This document shows, in pieces, positions 18,395 to 30,459 of a stretch of DNA of 64,000 nt; positions within the stretch are counted from its first letter, which is position 1; each line of letters begins with the position of its first letter. Source of the DNA: Phycisphaerales bacterium (GTDB lineage Bacteria > Planctomycetota > Phycisphaerae > Phycisphaerales > UBA1924). The stretch covers positions 1 through 64,000 of the forward strand of contig JADLCM010000008.1 of NCBI GenBank assembly GCA_020847175.1, written 5' to 3'. A model generated the notes under the pieces. The model was given only the letters and a program-made list of their open reading frames with translations, did no database searches and was not told the DNA's origin. The position numbers were made by a program, and so were the translations under genes.

Positions 18395-18459
18395 CGCATA
18401 GACTTGCACGCAAGGCCCGACAGCGCCGGGCTGATCTCGCCATGTCAGGAGCGCAAGCC

Positions 18460-19107
18460 ATGAGCATGTCGGCCCCCTTCAACCTTTCGGGGTGGATTCG
18501 CAGGAACAAGCACCTCCTCCAGCCTCCCGTCAGCAACAAGCAGCTGTACATCGACGAGGCGCAGGATGTCATCGTCTTCATCAGCGGCGGACCCAACACC
18601 AGAAACGATTACCACGTCAACCCCACCGAGGAACTCTTCTACCAACTCAAGGGCGACATCGCGGTGCGCGTGCGCCCTCTCGACGGCTCCACGCCGCACG
18701 ATGTGGTGATCAAGGAAGGGGAGATGTTCCTTTTGCCGCGCTGGGTGCCGCACCGTCCTCAGCGGCCGGCGAACACCGTCGGGCTGATCGTCGAGTTCCC
18801 GCGAGGCGTCGATGCCGAGGGCCTTCCGCAGAAAGACGGCCTTCGCTGGTACTGTCCGAAATGCGACGGCCTTGTCCACGAGGCCACCTGGGTGCTGCGG
18901 AAGATCGACGAAGACCTCAAGATCATCATGGAGGATTTCTGGGGAGGCCCGGCCGATCGGCGTACCTGCCGCGGCTGCGGGCACGTGATCGAGCGCGCCG
19001 GCGCGATCGAGCTCGCGCGCGGGAAAGTCAAGGTGGCCGCGCAGAAGCCACCGGTGAAGAAGGCCGCACGCGGTCGGTCGTCGACCGCTCGCGCGAAGCA
19101 TCGTTGA
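18460..19107 (+). CDS. nbaC: 3-hydroxyanthranilate 3,4-dioxygenase
   Basis: The enzyme opens 3-hydroxyanthranilate to 2-amino-3-carboxymuconate semialdehyde, a step of tryptophan breakdown and of quinolinate (NAD) synthesis. The cupin iron site is visible as His52 and Glu58 in YHVNPTEELFYQ, with a further His in PRWVPHRPQRP. Arg residues that bind substrate occur in NTRNDYH. The bacterial rubredoxin-like second metal site is present as WYCPKCDG and CRGCGH. The 215-residue length fits, with an added basic tail of about 30 residues. The ATG at 18460 follows AGGAG at suitable spacing; the ATG at 18442 lies before it and would include that site. No other kynurenine-pathway gene is nearby. Confidence 0.92.
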   Translation: MSMSAPFNLSGWIRRNKHLLQPPVSNKQLYIDEAQDVIVFISGGPNTRNDYHVNPTEELFYQLKGDIAVRVRPLDGSTPHDVVIKEGEMFLLPRWVPHRPQRPANTVGLIVEFPRGVDAEGLPQKDGLRWYCPKCDGLVHEATWVLRKIDEDLKIIMEDFWGGPADRRTCRGCGHVIERAGAIELARGKVKVAAQKPPVKKAARGRSSTARAKHR

Positions 19108-22594: not shown

Positions 22595-24628
22595 TCATGC
22601 GTCCACGTTCGCCGCCAGTCTGGCTCGAATCGCCAGCAGCAGCGGAAACTCGAGTCTCGCCCGATTCTCCTCCTTGGCTCTCGGCCCCGGTTCGCTCACC
22701 CGGCGGCTCGCCCATTCCTCCATCGCGTCCACCACGAAGCCCGCTTCGCCGAGCATGTTCACATAGGCGCCGATCGGGCGGTGGTACGTGACGGTGGTCA
22801 CCGGTTCGGCCCCGGACGAAGCCGCCCCGGGGTTCATCACGATCTCCTTACGCGACTCCGAGAGGTACGCATCGACCCGCCGGTACTGGCGCGCGGGCTG
22901 GCCCGAGTCCCATCCCCAACTCGTCCGCCCCGGCGTCCGAAAGGCCGGGTGCAGCAGCACGAGCACCAACGTGCCGCCGGGCTTGAGCACCGATGCGGCG
23001 CTCTTCAGGACTTCAGAGGCCGGGTCGATATTCATGATCGCCATCACGCAGGCCGCCGCGTCGAACGTCCCCAGCGCGCCGGCGTCGAGCGAGCGTGCAT
23101 CACCGACTTCGTATCGCGCCGCGCGGTGGGCCTCCCGCGCCGCATCGACCAGCGCAGGCGAGAGGTCAACACCGACCGTGTCCACGCCCCGTGCGCTGAG
23201 CTCGCGGCAGAGCAGACCCTCGCCGCACGCGATGTCCAGGATCTGCTGCCCCGGTGCCGGCCCGAGCAGCCGGATCACCCCGGGAACGATCAGGTCGTCG
23301 TGGTGATCGCCGGCCCCCGACCGAAGATGCCGGCCGTACCACTCGGCGACGTGGTCCCAAGATTTCGGCGCACCGGGCGCGGGGGCGGCGGAACTCTGCG
23401 CGGGCTGCACCGGCGCCGCGGGTCCACCGGGGCGAGGCCCGTCGTCCTTCGCGGCGGGTTGCCCCTTGCGTGCCATGCGGGCGACCGCGCCGGGCGCGTC
23501 CGGCACCGGGGCTCCTGCCGCGAGCACGAACGAAGGCGGCGCGGGGAGCGCCAGTGCCGGTCCCGGGCCGCCCTTCGGCTCGCCCGGGAGCGTCAGGCGC
23601 GCCAGATGCAGAAGGAGGCGCGGCCGGCCGTCCGCGCGCGTCGGCTCGGCGACCACGCGCCATCCGATGGTCTGCAAATGGATGTGCACCTGCCCGGGAC
23701 GCTCGGTGTGCAGCGTGAGTTCCACGACCGCCCGTGTTCGACCTCGGCTCAGAACCTTCATCGAGGTTCGCGCGGCCTTGCCCCTCGCATCGTCTTCGCC
23801 GACCGCGGGCCCGACTCTGCCCCTCGCGTCGGATCGCATCTCCACCGTGAGGTTGACATGCTCGGGAAGATCCGCGGGCGTCGCGCTTCCTTGCCCGATG
23901 GGCTCAATCACGGCGAGCACCGTGCGCGGGGCGTCGCCCGATCGGAAGTACTCCTTCAGGCTCGACGCGGTGTCGTCATCGAGCCCGAACACCACCAACC
24001 CGGAGGCTTCCGGGTCAAGGGGTGTGACCGGGCGCGGCTTGCCCCCCGCGAGCACGGGCACGAGTTTCGCCACCTGCTCCGCAACCAGGGTCAAAGTCCT
24101 CGGCGCGGTTTTTACACGTTCACCCGGGCGAAGCGACACCGGCATGCCGGGCGGCTTGTCCAAGACCATGACGCCGGGTGAAGCGTGGATCAGCCGCACG
24201 CCGCGCGCCACCCAATCGCCGGGTTCCGGAGACCCCTTCCGATCGCGAGCCGCGGGGGTCGCCGATCCGGATTTCGAGTTTCCGGCCGCACGCGCCGTGG
24301 GCACGCGCTTTGAGGTCGGGGCATCCCCGGCGGCTTGAAATCCGGATCGCCCCGTGCCGCGAGGGCCGACTTGGCGCGCCTCGTTCCGGCGCGATCCCGC
24401 CCGAGCCGGACGGCCGGGCGGAGGCTCGGAGTCCCGCGGCCCCCTTCGACTGACCGGGCCCGCAGGGCGATCCACGCGCGGGCGAGGGCCGCCTGTCGCA
24501 CGGTCATTGGACCGCGGCCCTCGTGGGCCGGCGCCGCCCGATCGAGGGTCATTGTCGAAGGGTCTCTGAAACGAAGGCTTGCGCGGGCCGCCGCGACGCG
24601 GGGAGGGACCGTCAGGTCGTGGAGGCAC
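22595..24628 (-). CDS. Degenerate RluA-like pseudouridine synthase fused to a SAM methyltransferase
   Basis: A 677-residue fusion. Residues 1-140 are Pro/Arg/Gly-rich and disordered. About 145-345 follow the RluA fold: VMVLDKPPGMPVSL, then TPLDPEASGLVVFG, where the usual HRLD is TPLD so the catalytic Asp remains but the Arg is lost. Further on is GQVHIHLQTIGWRVV, where HQIRVHL has lost its Arg. After a Pro/Ala linker, about 430-677 form a class I methyltransferase (ILDIACGEGLLCRELSARG, VGVDLSPALV). Catalytic pseudouridylation is doubtful; RNA binding to guide methylation is my inference. The GTG at 24628, with CGGAG upstream, overlaps the end of the coaB-like gene by 17 bases; longer frames overlap it more. 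Confidence 0.8.
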   Translation of the reverse strand: MPPRPDGPSPRRGGPRKPSFQRPFDNDPRSGGAGPRGPRSNDRATGGPRPRVDRPAGPVSRRGPRDSEPPPGRPARAGSRRNEARQVGPRGTGRSGFQAAGDAPTSKRVPTARAAGNSKSGSATPAARDRKGSPEPGDWVARGVRLIHASPGVMVLDKPPGMPVSLRPGERVKTAPRTLTLVAEQVAKLVPVLAGGKPRPVTPLDPEASGLVVFGLDDDTASSLKEYFRSGDAPRTVLAVIEPIGQGSATPADLPEHVNLTVEMRSDARGRVGPAVGEDDARGKAARTSMKVLSRGRTRAVVELTLHTERPGQVHIHLQTIGWRVVAEPTRADGRPRLLLHLARLTLPGEPKGGPGPALALPAPPSFVLAAGAPVPDAPGAVARMARKGQPAAKDDGPRPGGPAAPVQPAQSSAAPAPGAPKSWDHVAEWYGRHLRSGAGDHHDDLIVPGVIRLLGPAPGQQILDIACGEGLLCRELSARGVDTVGVDLSPALVDAAREAHRAARYEVGDARSLDAGALGTFDAAACVMAIMNIDPASEVLKSAASVLKPGGTLVLVLLHPAFRTPGRTSWGWDSGQPARQYRRVDAYLSESRKEIVMNPGAASSGAEPVTTVTYHRPIGAYVNMLGEAGFVVDAMEEWASRRVSEPGPRAKEENRARLEFPLLLAIRARLAANVDA

Positions 24629-25322
24629 GGCGGAACTCCGAGATGATGTTGAGAAGCCAGGGGGCGAAGGCATCCTTGGCGATGGGTCCCGGGGTTGCGA
24701 ATCCTTCGGGATCACGCCCGGTAATGACCACGGCTTCAATGGTGGGGGCGTCCATGGTCTCCAACGGGTTGGCGACGATCATGTCCACGCGTTTTCGTTC
24801 AAGCTTTCGGCGGGCCGACGCTAGCATCTCGGCCCGGGGCTCGAGTGCGAAGCCTACGATAGTCTGCCCCGCGGGGCGGCGGGCCGCGCATCCTGCCAGC
24901 AGGTCCGGCGTGCTTTCAAGTTCAATCGTCATCCCCCCCTCCGTCCGGCGGTGCTTGCCCGAGAGCATGTCGCCGGAGACCTTTGGGCGGTAGTCCGCGA
25001 CCGCCGCGGCCATGACCAGAACGTCGGCCTCGGGCGCGTGGGCCCGCAGCAAGGCGTCCAGGTCCGCGCAGGTGCGGAACCGGAACACCCGAAGGGACGA
25101 ATCGGAAGGTTGCGTGGGCGTGGGGCCCAGCAGGAGCGTCACGTCCCAACCCAGGCGGCCGGCCACCTCGGCCAGGGAGATGCCGAGACGACCGCTGGAG
25201 CGGTTTCCGATGAATCGAACGGCATCGATGGGCTCGTGAGTGGGGCCGGCCGTAATCAGGATTCGAGGAGGTCGGGCTTCGGTCACGGGGTTCTCACGGG
25301 CTGGCCTGGTCTCGGGCGTCAT
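24612..25322 (-). CDS. coaB: Phosphopantothenate-cysteine ligase (CoaB domain)
   Basis: This is the CoaB half of coenzyme A synthesis, joining cysteine to 4'-phosphopantothenate after nucleotide activation. The nucleotide-binding start ILITAGPTHEPIDAVRFIGN and the following RSSGRLG are textbook. The VMAAAVADYRP motif contributes the active-site Asn/Asp region, and KRKRVDMIVANPLE stands near the C-terminus with the conserved Asn. Most bacteria carry a CoaBC fusion; here the 236-residue protein is CoaB alone, and no CoaC decarboxylase is in the window. Two starts are possible, ATG at 25322 and GTG at 25286, and neither has a clear ribosome binding site. It is translationally coupled to the downstream RluA-methyltransferase fusion. 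Confidence 0.88.
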   Translation of the reverse strand: MTPETRPARENPVTEARPPRILITAGPTHEPIDAVRFIGNRSSGRLGISLAEVAGRLGWDVTLLLGPTPTQPSDSSLRVFRFRTCADLDALLRAHAPEADVLVMAAAVADYRPKVSGDMLSGKHRRTEGGMTIELESTPDLLAGCAARRPAGQTIVGFALEPRAEMLASARRKLERKRVDMIVANPLETMDAPTIEAVVITGRDPEGFATPGPIAKDAFAPWLLNIISEFRRASTT

Positions 25323-25549
25323 CCTGAGCAGGCGAAGGCGGGGGCACGCAGGTCTGGGGCAGCCGGTTTCTCTCGGAGTCCCCGAACACAAAGGATTCAT
25401 AGGCGCGGGAGCAGTGGAGCAGTGCTCCGGGCGAGGTTTCCACAGGGGCGGCTCGAAGACCGTGCCCGGTGTCGGTACCATGCTCCCCCCGGTGCCGGCA
25501 CCTGGGGCGGATTTCGTCGGGGTTTGGCCCCAGGGGTGAACGGAAGGTC

Positions 25550-27271
25550 ATGGCACGATCGCGCAAGAAACTCGGTGACATTCTGGTGGGCTGGGGCATG
25601 ATTTCGCAGGCACAGGCGGATCAGGCCTCCGCCGCCGCCCTGTCGAGCGGCCGTCGCCTGGGTGATGTCCTCGTCGAAATGGGATTCGCCAAAGAAGATC
25701 AGGTTGCCAAGGCTTTGGCAAACCAGTTTGGGATGGAGTTTGTCGACCTCAGCGCCCAGGGAGTGGGGAGCAAGGTTGATATGAAGCTGATCGCCCGCGA
25801 CCTCATCAAGAAGCACACGATCCTGCCGTTCGGAAAGGTCGGAAACAAGCTCCAGCTCGTCATCCATGACCCGATGGACCTCGAGCTCATGGACATGCTT
25901 CGATTCCGGTACGGCATGGAGATTGAGCCGCGACTGGCCGCCAAGGGTCAGATCAAGGCGTTTATTGAGGGAGGCGGCGCATCGGGCGGGGGCGCCCAGC
26001 GCCAGATCGCCCCCGGAGAAAGCCTGGTTTCAGAATCGATCGACCGGACCATCGACCGCTCGGTGGACCGCTCGATGGACAAATCCATCGACGTGTCGCG
26101 CGAAGATGCGCCGGTGGTGCGGCTGGTGGACCGCATCCTGCGGGAAGCCATCGGGATGCGCGCCTCCGACATCCACTTTGAACCCATGGCGGACCGGGTG
26201 CGCCTGCGCTACCGGATCGACGGTGTGTGTCTTGAGCGCGACAACCTCCCCAAGCGAATGCAGAACGCGATCCTCAGCCGCATCAAGCTGATGAGCGTGA
26301 TGAACATCGCCGAGAAGCGCGTGCCGCAGGACGGACGCATCAAACTGCCCTACGAAGAGAAGCAGATCGACTTCCGTGTGTCGGCCTGCCCTGCGTATCA
26401 CGGCGAGAGCGTGGTGCTTCGTATTCTTCGCCCGGAATCGGCCCGAATCGGCCTGGCCAATCTCGGGTTCGAAGGCGATAACCTGGCGGCGTTCAACCGG
26501 ATCATCCGGCGCCCCAACGGCATCTTCCTCGTCACGGGCCCCACAGGCTCGGGCAAGACCACCACCCTTTACTCCGCGCTCGACGTGCTCAACCGCCCGG
26601 ACAAGAAGATCATCACCGCCGAAGACCCGGTGGAATACAACTTCGCCGGCATCAACCAGTGCCAGGTCAAGGAGCAGATCGGGCTCGGGTTCTCGATCAT
26701 CCTGCGGTCGATGCTCCGTCAGGCGCCCAACATCATCCTTGTGGGCGAAATCCGCGACCGTGAAGTGGGCGAGATCGCGATTCAGGCCGCCCTGACGGGG
26801 CACCTGGTGTTCAGCACCCTGCACACCAATGACGCGCCCAGCGCCATCACCCGTCTCATCGACATGGGGATCAAGCCCTTCCTGGTAGCCAGCTCGATCC
26901 AGGCCGTCATGGCTCAGCGGCTTATCCGCGTGATCTGCCCGCAGTGCAAGGCCCCCGACCCGGCCCCGGACCCCAAGCTGATGCACCTGGTCGGGCTCAC
27001 GCCGGAGATGGCCGCCGGCAAACTGATGAAGGGCACCGGGTGCGCCAACTGCGCCAACACGGGCTACCGCGGGCGACGGGCGATCTTCGAGATGATGCAG
27101 ATGAACAGCCAGATCCGCGACCTCGCCTTCAACAAGGCCCCGGTCTCGGAGATCCGCAAGGCCGCCATCGCGTCGGGCATGAAGACCCTCGTGGACGACG
27201 GCCGCAACAAGATTCTCGCGGGAAACACGACCTGTGACGAGGTCGCGAAAATGGCCCAGCAGGAACATTGA
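25550..27271 (+). CDS. GspE/PilB-type assembly ATPase (first copy)
   Basis: Hexameric ATPase that powers pseudopilus or pilus extension from the cytoplasm. Residues 1-140 are a MshEN domain (KLGDILVGWGMISQAQADQA, and the second half with KKHTILPFGKVGNKLQLV), which in relatives binds c-di-GMP. A linker at about 162-185 repeats a SID-R-x-ID pattern (IDRTIDRSVDRSMDKSID), probably a helix. The ATPase core has Walker A GPTGSGKTTTLYS near 329, Asp and His boxes, and Walker B ILVGEIRDREVGE. The tetracysteine zinc site CPQC and CANC is near 463-490. The 573 residues agree with the family. The ATG at 25550 follows GGAAGG. It leads the secretion cluster, 91 bases before pilT. Confidence 0.93.
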   Translation: MARSRKKLGDILVGWGMISQAQADQASAAALSSGRRLGDVLVEMGFAKEDQVAKALANQFGMEFVDLSAQGVGSKVDMKLIARDLIKKHTILPFGKVGNKLQLVIHDPMDLELMDMLRFRYGMEIEPRLAAKGQIKAFIEGGGASGGGAQRQIAPGESLVSESIDRTIDRSVDRSMDKSIDVSREDAPVVRLVDRILREAIGMRASDIHFEPMADRVRLRYRIDGVCLERDNLPKRMQNAILSRIKLMSVMNIAEKRVPQDGRIKLPYEEKQIDFRVSACPAYHGESVVLRILRPESARIGLANLGFEGDNLAAFNRIIRRPNGIFLVTGPTGSGKTTTLYSALDVLNRPDKKIITAEDPVEYNFAGINQCQVKEQIGLGFSIILRSMLRQAPNIILVGEIRDREVGEIAIQAALTGHLVFSTLHTNDAPSAITRLIDMGIKPFLVASSIQAVMAQRLIRVICPQCKAPDPAPDPKLMHLVGLTPEMAAGKLMKGTGCANCANTGYRGRRAIFEMMQMNSQIRDLAFNKAPVSEIRKAAIASGMKTLVDDGRNKILAGNTTCDEVAKMAQQEH

Positions 27272-27278
27272 CGCCGGT

Positions 27279-27302
27279 GCGACCGGATCGAATCCCGGTC
27301 GC
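27279..27302. repeat. Hairpin between the first ATPase gene and pilT
   Basis: GCGACCGG and CCGGTCGC form a perfect 8-bp stem with an eight-base loop, just after the ATPase stop codon. Without a T-tract it is more likely an mRNA processing or stability element than a terminator. Confidence 0.45.
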
Positions 27303-27361
27303 GAAGAGTCACGCCTCACCAAGCGCGGCATCAGGCCGCGAGATGTCCGGGAGTTCGCCAG

Positions 27362-28477
27362 ATGTCCTCAATGCAGATTGACCGGTTGCTCGACACGGTC
27401 GTCAAGACCGGCGCCAGCGACCTTCACCTCACCGTGGGCCGCCCGCCCACCATCCGCCTTCACGGTCGCCTGCGGAACCTCCAGACCAAGATCCTGGATT
27501 CCGACGACATGGTGGGCCTGATGAAGGCGATTACCCCGGAACGCAACCAGCAGGAACTTCAGGAAGAGGGCGGCACCGACTTCGGCTTCGCCTACGGCGA
27601 TGCCGCTCGATTCCGTGTGTCGGTCTTTCGCCAGCGCGCGGACCTCGCGATCGTGCTTCGTCAGATCCCGAACAAACTGCTCACCTTTGAGCAGATCGGT
27701 CTGCCTGAAATGTGTCGCGAGTTGATCCGGCGCCCCCGCGGACTCTTCCTGATTACCGGACCTACGGGCTCGGGGAAGACCACTTCGCTCGCCACAATGA
27801 TCGACTACATCAACACCACGATGGATCACCACATCATCACGATGGAAGACCCCATCGAGTACTACCACAAGCACAAGAAGTCGATTCTGAACCAGCGCGA
27901 GGTCGGAAACGACGTGCCGTCATTCGCCGAAGCCCTTCGCCGAGCCCTTCGTCAGGACCCTGACAACATCCTGGTGGGCGAAATGCGCGACCTCGAGACC
28001 ATCGAGGCGGCCATTCGCGCCGCCGAGACCGGGCACTTGGTCTTCGCAACCCTCCACACCACCGGCGCTGCCAAGACCATCGACCGCGTCGTGGACGCCT
28101 TCCCGGTCAGCCAGCAGAACCAGATCCGGGTCCAGTTGTCCACAGCCCTCATCGCGGTCATCAGCCAGGCCCTGCTCAGCCGAATCGACCAGCCGGGCAT
28201 GGTGGCGGCGTACGAGTTCATGGTCGTGACCCCGGCCATCGCCAACCTGATCCGCGATGCCAAGACCTTCCGCATCGACTCCATGATCCAGACCGGCAAG
28301 AAGTTCGGCATGCAGTTGCTGGACGACCACCTCTGGCAGCTCTATTCCGAAGGCAAGATCTCCGCCGAGGAAATGGTGGATCGAGCGAAGAATCCGGCTG
28401 ACCTGAGGGACAAGGTTCACAAACTGGGCCGCACCGTGGGCCGGGTTGAGTGGGACGAAGACGACGAGACGGCCTGA
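27362..28477 (+). CDS. pilT: Twitching-motility retraction ATPase PilT
   Basis: PilT drives pilus retraction by ATP hydrolysis at the inner membrane. The N-terminal PAS-like domain begins GASDLHLTVGRPPTIRLHGR. Walker A is GPTGSGKTTSLATMID near residue 134. The Asp box is ITMEDPIEYYHKHKKS, Walker B is NILVGEMRDLET, and the His box is TGHLVFATLHTTGAAKTIDR. The AIRAAETGH and VSQALLSR segments are typical of PilT. It lacks the zinc tetracysteine of PilB/GspE, as expected. Length (371 residues) is slightly above the usual 345, due to an acidic C-terminal tail (VEWDEDDETA). Its place between two GspE-type genes suggests a retractable pseudopilus. Confidence 0.93.
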   Translation: MSSMQIDRLLDTVVKTGASDLHLTVGRPPTIRLHGRLRNLQTKILDSDDMVGLMKAITPERNQQELQEEGGTDFGFAYGDAARFRVSVFRQRADLAIVLRQIPNKLLTFEQIGLPEMCRELIRRPRGLFLITGPTGSGKTTSLATMIDYINTTMDHHIITMEDPIEYYHKHKKSILNQREVGNDVPSFAEALRRALRQDPDNILVGEMRDLETIEAAIRAAETGHLVFATLHTTGAAKTIDRVVDAFPVSQQNQIRVQLSTALIAVISQALLSRIDQPGMVAAYEFMVVTPAIANLIRDAKTFRIDSMIQTGKKFGMQLLDDHLWQLYSEGKISAEEMVDRAKNPADLRDKVHKLGRTVGRVEWDEDDETA

Positions 28478-28614
28478 GCCGCACGCTCTATCTTACGGCC
28501 CGTATCGTGGCCGGGAAGAATTCGAGATGTGAAAACGCAATTATCCATGTGTCGCGTCAAAACTTGCGGGCTTTGGCGCGAATGCAGCACGAACCGATCG
28601 GGTAGACTGGACGA

Positions 28615-28635
28615 ATCGACCATCGTCCGGTCGAT
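28615..28635. promoter_or_regulatory. Perfect inverted repeat upstream of the second ATPase gene
   Basis: ATCGACC and GGTCGAT flank a seven-base spacer, 85 bases before the second ATPase gene in a 242-base gap that also has AT-rich patches. It could be an operator of an internal promoter or a leader hairpin. Confidence 0.35.
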
Positions 28636-28719
28636 GTTGGTTGCATTATCGCCCGACCGAGACGGTGGCGGCGACGCCCATGAAACTCGGGGCGGAAAGG
28701 TCGAGATCGGCGGAGGGTT

Positions 28720-30459
28720 ATGGCTGAGACGGCGTTCAATGCGGCGGAGTTCAAGGGTCGGAAGATCGGCCGCGTCCTCACCAAGATGGGCAAGGTGACG
28801 CGTGAGCAGGTCCACGAGGCGCTTGAGGTCCAGAAGACCCGGAAGGTTCCTCTCGGGAAACTCCTGGAGGAACTCGGGTACTGCACCGCCAAGGACATCT
28901 CGGCGGGCCTTGCGGCGCAGGCCGGCATGGAGTTTGTCGACCTGACCGGCTTCGAGCCCCCGGCCGAGGCGATCGAGGTCATCCCTTCGGAGACGGCCCA
29001 GGCGTACCAGATCATCCCGATTGAGTACATCGCCCAGGGCAAGCGCCTGAAGGTCGCACTCAAGGGGGCGGACAACTTTCAGGCGGTGGATGACCTTCGC
29101 CTGCTCATGGGCTTCAACGTCGAGGCCGTGGTGACGGAGCCCGCCTCGATTGACCAACTGCTTGCCAAGCACTACTCGAAGCAGGAGGCGATCGTGGACC
29201 TCGTGGGCGCGATGGCGACCAACGAGAAGTTCAAGGGCCTGGAGAACCGGGGCGACTCGATCGACCTGGACGAACTCAAGGGGGCCGCCGAGGACAACCA
29301 GGTTGTCAAGCTTCTCAACCTGGTCCTGTTGCAGGCGATCAAGGACCGGGCGAGCGACATTCACTTCGAGCCCTTCGAGGCCGAGTTCAAGATGCGCTAC
29401 CGCATTGACGGGGTGCTGTACGAGATGGTGCCGCCCCCGAAGCACCTCGGCCCGGCGATCACCAGCCGCATCAAGGTCATGTCGAACCTTGACATCGCGG
29501 AGCGGCGCATGCCCCAGGACGGTCGCATCGAGCTGACGGTGGGGGGGAGGCCGGTGGACCTGCGCGTCGCGGTGCTGCCGACGATCTACGGCGAGAGCGT
29601 CGTGATGCGCGTGCTGGACCGGAGCAACGTGCAGTTGAAACTGGACCGCATCGGGTTCCGCGAGGATGACCTGGAGAAGTTCCGCAAACTGATCGGCAAA
29701 CCGAACGGCATCGTGGTGGTGACGGGTCCGACAGGCTCGGGCAAGACGACGACGTTGTACGCCGCGCTCGCGGAACTGAACGACATCGAGACCAAGATCC
29801 TGACCGCGGAAGACCCGGTCGAGTATGACATCGACGGGCTGTGCCAGTGCCAGGTCAACGAGAGTCTCGGGCTGACGTTCGCCAAGTGCCTGCGCAGCTT
29901 CCTCCGCCAGGATCCTGACATCATCCTGGTGGGCGAGATCCGCGACGGGGAGACGGCGCAGATCGCGGTGCAGGCATCGCTCACGGGGCACCTCGTGCTC
30001 ACCACGCTGCACACGAACGATGCGCCGAGTTCGGTCGTGCGACTCATCGACCTGGGCATGGAGCCCTTCCTGCTCACGGCGACGATCGAGGGCGTGTGTG
30101 CCCAGCGCCTGGTGCGCACCGTGTGCTCCAAGTGCAAGGAGATGTACCAGCCGTCCGAAGAGGAACTGATGGAGCTCCAGCTCCGCCCGGCGGACGTCCG
30201 CGGCAAGAAGTTCTTCCGGGGCAAGGGGTGCGACAACTGCCACGGCTCGGGGTATCGCGGGCGCATGGCGCTCTTCGAGCTCATGGTGATGGACGACGAG
30301 ATGCGAGAGCTCATCATGAAGGAAGCGAGCACCGCGGTGCTCCGCGACCACGCCCGCAAGCGCGGCATGCGCACGCTGCGCGAGTGCGGTCTGCTGGCCA
30401 TCTTCGAAGGACAGACCACCATCGACGAGGTGGTGCGTGAGACGATCATGGAAGATTGA
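28720..30459 (+). CDS. GspE/PilB-type assembly ATPase (second copy)
   Basis: A second assembly ATPase (579 residues), divergent in sequence from the first but of the same design. The N-terminal MshEN domain runs from KIGRVLTKMGKVTREQVHEA to VDDLRLLMGFNVEAV. The core has Walker A GPTGSGKTTTLYAALAEL near residue 336, the Asp box TAEDPVEYDIDGLCQCQVNE, and Walker B IILVGEIRDGETA. The zinc site is CSKC and CDNC near 468-507. It lacks the SID repeat linker of the first copy. It lies 103 bases before the GspF-like gene. Two copies may serve two machines or two stages, one perhaps pilus-like with PilT and the other T2SS-like with the pseudopilins. GGAGG precedes the ATG. Confidence 0.93.
   Translation: MAETAFNAAEFKGRKIGRVLTKMGKVTREQVHEALEVQKTRKVPLGKLLEELGYCTAKDISAGLAAQAGMEFVDLTGFEPPAEAIEVIPSETAQAYQIIPIEYIAQGKRLKVALKGADNFQAVDDLRLLMGFNVEAVVTEPASIDQLLAKHYSKQEAIVDLVGAMATNEKFKGLENRGDSIDLDELKGAAEDNQVVKLLNLVLLQAIKDRASDIHFEPFEAEFKMRYRIDGVLYEMVPPPKHLGPAITSRIKVMSNLDIAERRMPQDGRIELTVGGRPVDLRVAVLPTIYGESVVMRVLDRSNVQLKLDRIGFREDDLEKFRKLIGKPNGIVVVTGPTGSGKTTTLYAALAELNDIETKILTAEDPVEYDIDGLCQCQVNESLGLTFAKCLRSFLRQDPDIILVGEIRDGETAQIAVQASLTGHLVLTTLHTNDAPSSVVRLIDLGMEPFLLTATIEGVCAQRLVRTVCSKCKEMYQPSEEELMELQLRPADVRGKKFFRGKGCDNCHGSGYRGRMALFELMVMDDEMRELIMKEASTAVLRDHARKRGMRTLRECGLLAIFEGQTTIDEVVRETIMED

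Follow-up and report, generated by a model that had tools for sequence, protein, structure and literature searches.

Pseudouridine synthases (PUS) of the RluA family, such as RluA, RluC, RluD and TruC (PF00849, TIGR00005), share one fold and homologous motifs. RluD works jointly with RlmH, and these two separate enzymes together make 3-methylpseudouridine in 23S rRNA, RlmH being a SPOUT-fold enzyme. Class I SAM methyltransferases of the 3bkw/3e8s/3g5l type carry no PUS domain and are described only as (putative) SAM-dependent methyltransferases. Inactive members are also known among the synthases: human RPUSD3, of the RluA family, has been retained although it has lost the catalytic Asp and is without noticeable activity in cells (PMC12716993), and human TRUB2, of the TruB family, is likewise reported inactive.

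The gene described here lies in a window of 64,000 nucleotides, which means the whole stretch of Phycisphaerales DNA that was analysed, and it joins a PUS half to a methyltransferase half. The PUS half has the fold and the homologous motifs of the RluA family, and HRLD, Tyr and QIR persist in most fused relatives, but here the synthase is joined to a methyltransferase and belongs to a clade of its own, and the window copy is without the Arg, the Tyr and the second Arg. The methyltransferase half finds its best sequence and structure matches in the 3bkw/3e8s/3g5l type. An intact fusion could combine the PUS and methyltransferase chemistry of RluD and RlmH, but RlmH is a separate SPOUT protein, whereas the methyltransferase of the fusion is class I. 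RPUSD3 is a parallel to the pseudo-PUS, as an RluA-family protein retained though inactive, but it is a vertebrate protein without a methyltransferase fusion, and the window copy still has its Asp. The sequence-only reading knew of no such fusion, and we found no published PUS-methyltransferase fusion in the literature searched, largely outside subscription journals.

The fusion gene and its domains

The gene was placed by the sequence-only reading at 22595-24628 with no strand named; these coordinates hold, on the minus strand, and the plus strand in the same frame is interrupted by stops. The features are as follows (residue numbers are those of the window protein).

22595..24628, minus strand: fusion gene (stop included) for a basic tail, an RluA-type pseudo-PUS and a class I SAM methyltransferase; open frame, Pfam
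24206..24628, minus strand: disordered Arg/Pro/Gly-rich N-terminal tail, residues 1-141; composition
23507..24205, minus strand: RluA-type pseudouridine synthase domain, catalytically degenerate, residues 142-374; PF00849, structure model
24014..24025, minus strand: TPLD in place of HRLD (motif II), residues 202-205, Arg lost and Asp kept; alignments
23918..23920, minus strand: Val237 in place of the conserved active-site Tyr (R-x-Y-x-A-V); alignments
23684..23695, minus strand: GQVH in place of HQIR (motif III), within GQVHIHL, residues 312-318, Arg lost; alignments
23372..23506, minus strand: low-complexity Pro/Ala-rich linker, residues 375-419; low pLDDT, variable length in relatives
22619..23371, minus strand: class I SAM-dependent methyltransferase domain, residues 420-670; Pfam, profile and structure matches
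23216..23236, minus strand: SAM-binding motif I, DIACGEG, residues 465-471; D, C, G and G invariant in 85/85 fused relatives
22937..22951, minus strand: HPAFR, residues 560-564, a signature of the methyltransferase family
24612..25481, minus strand: coaB-like gene (DFP domain; PF04127, 172 bits), upstream neighbour of the fusion gene

The product has 677 amino acids (677 codons without the stop, 22598-24628 on the minus strand), and translation starts from a GTG at 24628 with GGAG 8 nt upstream. The end of the coaB-like gene overlaps this start by 17 nt, and 15 of the 34 compared loci have such a gene directly upstream of the fusion. The coaB-like gene of the window encodes the DFP C-terminal domain only, with no CoaC half seen. 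On the plus strand, 25469-30459 holds three consecutive type IV pilus-like ATPase genes (PilB-like, PilT-like, PilB-like), a trio that adjoins the coaB-fusion pair in many relatives too. Further away, 18442-19107 (plus strand) resembles by eye a 3-hydroxyanthranilate 3,4-dioxygenase gene.

The first half of the protein has the RluA fold; a failure to model as this fold, named beforehand as grounds for refutation, did not occur. PseudoU_synth_2 (PF00849) matched residues 153-319 with 53.1 bits against a curated cut-off of 26.8. The structure model was alignment-based with a pLDDT of 77 overall; where the PUS domain is structured the values were mostly 75-92, and they fell below 50 at model residues 234-298, which supports the linker. 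Foldseek matched the PUS half to RluA 2i82, RluD, RluC and RPUSD4 with E from 1e-12 to 1e-13, and 2i82 itself gave an E of 1.1e-13 and a TM of 0.70-0.73 by target. The rows of the VIA-align alignment were almost only on the methyltransferase half, and it is Foldseek and Pfam that support the PUS fold.

Alignments showed that the motif-II Arg, the active-site Tyr and the motif-III Arg are replaced by Pro, Val and His in the window protein. The two Arg losses, from HRLD and from HQIRVHL, and the retained Asp had been read from the sequence before and agreed with the alignments; the loss of the Tyr, which is present in 61/61 intact fused relatives, and a TER where TGR is conserved were missing from that list. 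The Asp205 of the window protein means little, because the same-genus relative carries Glu there (NWIE).

The tail, which had been called disordered and Arg-rich, contains 26 Arg, 26 Pro and 22 Gly in its 141 residues with a net charge of +18, and a basic N-terminus of varying length is common to all fused relatives.

The second half had been read as a class I methyltransferase with an intact ACGEG loop, and both points stood (residues 467-471; Methyltransf_25/11 at residues 463-556 with 61 bits, cut-offs 27 and 21.2). The A1 profile scored the domain at 391-394 bits, and its model matched the structures 3bkw and 3e8s with Z of 20-25. In all 85 fused members the signature residues of the domain, among them DxACGxG and HPAFR, vary little or not at all; within HPAFR, H, P and R are kept in 85/85, A in 82 and F in 84, and standalone methyltransferases carry the counterpart HPAF or HPCF. 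This signature probably sits near the acceptor site. A phrog hit labelled "tRNA methyltransferase" (44 bits) reflects generic class I similarity.

Distribution and origin of the fusion

The fusion is real and conserved. Of 100 genomes sampled from its family, about 70 gave a strong match, and every fetched family locus with the methyltransferase had both halves in one frame. An assembly artefact or a frameshift was rejected, as the single open frame recurs in dozens of independent genomes. Among the fused members that bear a name, one is a Tepidisphaera and the others are metagenome-assembled genomes of Phycisphaerales; four more fused members belong to two further families in the phylum, f14 and f74. 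Beyond these three families the methyltransferase is standalone, in a further family (f16) and other planctomycetes, and it is also standalone in 10 of 145 genomes of the phylum to which an Uhrbacteria genome belongs.

Separate genes for the two halves in close relatives, with no read support for the fusion, had been named as evidence that would speak against it. They do occur, but only outside the family: in a genome of a sister family of the same order (G208), the TGA of an intact RluA gene overlaps the ATG of the methyltransferase gene (ATGA), and among the fetched loci of the family no such arrangement was seen. The separate genes of the sister family are therefore likely a precursor state and not evidence against the fusion. 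In locus L085 (3565-5861, plus strand) an RluA gene, whose N-terminal extension looks S4-like by eye, has the ATGA overlap with a standalone methyltransferase gene, and RNase HI follows; this pair is a probable pre-fusion state. The PUS and methyltransferase genes of another genome (G282) are far apart. In the methyltransferase tree all fused rows lie on one side of one branch with support of 99/99, which fits a single origin of the fusion.

Decay or reuse of the synthase half

All four residues (Arg, Asp, Tyr, Arg) are kept in 61 of the 85 distinct fused PUS halves, while 24 are degenerate and 8 of those are without the Asp itself. The fused PUS halves and the separate PUS of the sister family form their own clade, apart from E. 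coli RluA, RluC, RluD and TruC and apart from the RluD-like, the RluA-like and the third RluA-type protein of the window genome. As most fused halves are intact and group in this clade, the PUS was very probably functional when the fusion arose, and the window copy would have decayed later; the ancestral enzyme was probably bifunctional. The description of the fusion as such as a degenerate RluA domain with a methyltransferase therefore did not survive the comparison. A better description is that of a bifunctional PUS-methyltransferase in which the synthase has died several times, in the window as well.

Parsimony on the methyltransferase tree gave about 5 PUS losses (bootstrap range 4-9), a soft number since many inner branches are weak, and the well-supported branches force at least 2. 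A single degenerate clade was also considered and rejected: the PUS tree groups its degenerate rows, but on long branches, and the methyltransferase tree, which is free of this bias, splits them into about 5 events.

For the window protein, our preferred reading, to which we give a probability of roughly 50%, is that the fusion was bifunctional at its origin and that the PUS half of the window protein now serves the methyltransferase as an RNA-binding module. The ancestral enzyme would have combined an RluA-family PUS, a class I SAM methyltransferase and a basic tail for bifunctional RNA modification; in the window lineage the synthase has lost the motif-II Arg, the Tyr and the motif-III Arg, which serve base flipping and catalysis, and the pseudo-PUS would bind and position RNA and so bring the methyltransferase to its target, most likely ribosomal RNA or tRNA. 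We infer accordingly an inactive PUS, an active methyltransferase and an RNA substrate for the window protein, with the PUS half as the binding module.

The main rival to this reading is plain decay after loss of the target modification, in which the PUS half has no function and is kept by the shared open frame; we consider it possible but unlikely. Substitution patterns bear on it from both sides. Columns at least 95% identical in intact members were kept in degenerate members at 94% in the methyltransferase half and at 67% in the PUS half, a figure that counts five gap columns and is nearer 62% for residues. At matched methyltransferase identity the PUS identity was about 0.46-0.51, versus 0.27-0.36 with degenerate members (bins with more than two pairs). 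This lower conservation and identity shows that decay loosened the PUS half, a point in favour of the rival. The window protein and its same-genus relative, which has lost the Asp, agree with it further: their PUS halves are 34% identical with a dN/dS of about 0.40 and a dS near saturation, and their methyltransferase halves are 64% identical with a dN/dS of 0.19. A PUS half that evolves this fast may be in mid-decay rather than repurposed.

However, the RluA fold is still recognisable by sequence and model, no fused family gene with a deleted PUS half was seen among the fetched members with the methyltransferase, and all 24 degenerate members retain K21, G69 and H228 (numbered as in the alignment) as well as the motif-III Q. 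Two pairs of Asp-less relatives also argue against plain decay. By a simple counting method (dS 0.6-1.2), the dN/dS of the PUS half was 0.060 in L051/L052 and 0.071 in L157/L158, no higher than that of the methyltransferase half (0.089 and 0.138). Under such strong purifying selection the dead PUS must, judged from these rates, do a non-catalytic job in those two lineages. For the window's own PUS half, retention under selection is no more than likely, because the dN/dS of 0.40 was obtained with dS near saturation. The suggestion that a PUS has been reused as an RNA-binding module thus gained its first part, non-catalytic retention, from the purifying selection in Asp-less relatives, while RNA methylation, its second part, is an inference.

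Substrate of the methyltransferase and meaning of the fusion

An RNA substrate is suggested by the PUS partner, by basic tails that are present on standalone methyltransferases too, by the gene overlap in the sister family and by one rpsP/trmD context. Among the neighbours of standalone copies there was this one clear RNA context, in an Uhrbacteria genome, and one rnhA neighbour. In the Uhrbacteria stretch (L019, 4674-8897, plus strand) a basic-tailed standalone methyltransferase is followed, a few genes downstream, by rpsP, a gene resembling one for a KH-domain protein, and trmD.

RlmH (PF02590) had no match anywhere in the window's own genome, where the domain of the fusion is class I and not SPOUT, and RlmH is absent too from the same-family and same-order genomes listed. 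A role of the methyltransferase as a general RlmH replacement was rejected, since many f16 genomes carry RlmH alongside the standalone methyltransferase.

A small-molecule substrate for the methyltransferase, with the fusion a mere accident of the two genes having been neighbours, is improbable. The nearest solved structures do include small-molecule enzymes such as ToxA, and the neighbours vary, the commonest being coaB, a CoA-biosynthesis gene, but about 70 of 100 genomes have kept the fusion, the same two genes overlap translationally in the sister family, and the standalone copies have basic tails, one of them by rpsP/trmD. Still less probable is a PUS half of the window protein that works with an unusual active site in a still bifunctional enzyme: Asp205 is kept, so weak activity may persist, and some synthase substitutions leave partial activity (RluB Y140F retains about 3%, PMC3919597, and human PUS1 is reported to be partially active despite many substitutions of conserved active-site residues, Sibert 2008, listed by title among the references of that paper), but three residues present in 61/61 intact relatives are jointly lost here and the same-genus relative is also without the Asp, so the lineage tolerates a dead PUS.

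The preferred reading, a pseudo-PUS that guides a methyltransferase, can be carried further to the intact fusions (about 70% of members), though we hold this more tentatively than the reading itself and think it rather doubtful. In these single-chain enzymes the PUS would make pseudouridine and the methyltransferase would methylate that or a neighbouring nucleotide, and in the window lineage methylation only would remain, with the dead PUS used for targeting. If true, this would be a bacterial class I pseudouridine-methyltransferase, and its forms would make up a natural series that begins with bifunctional enzymes and ends with ones guided by a pseudoenzyme.

Two RNA-modifying enzymes fused in one chain point to two modifications made together. 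The finding also points to a methyltransferase family common to planctomycetes and small-genome (candidate-phylum) bacteria. One fusion event with many intact descendants and several lineages with one dead half is a natural experiment, and this fusion series could test directly whether a PUS can become an RNA-binding module and nothing else, as seemingly inactive synthases, human RPUSD3 for example, lead one to ask.
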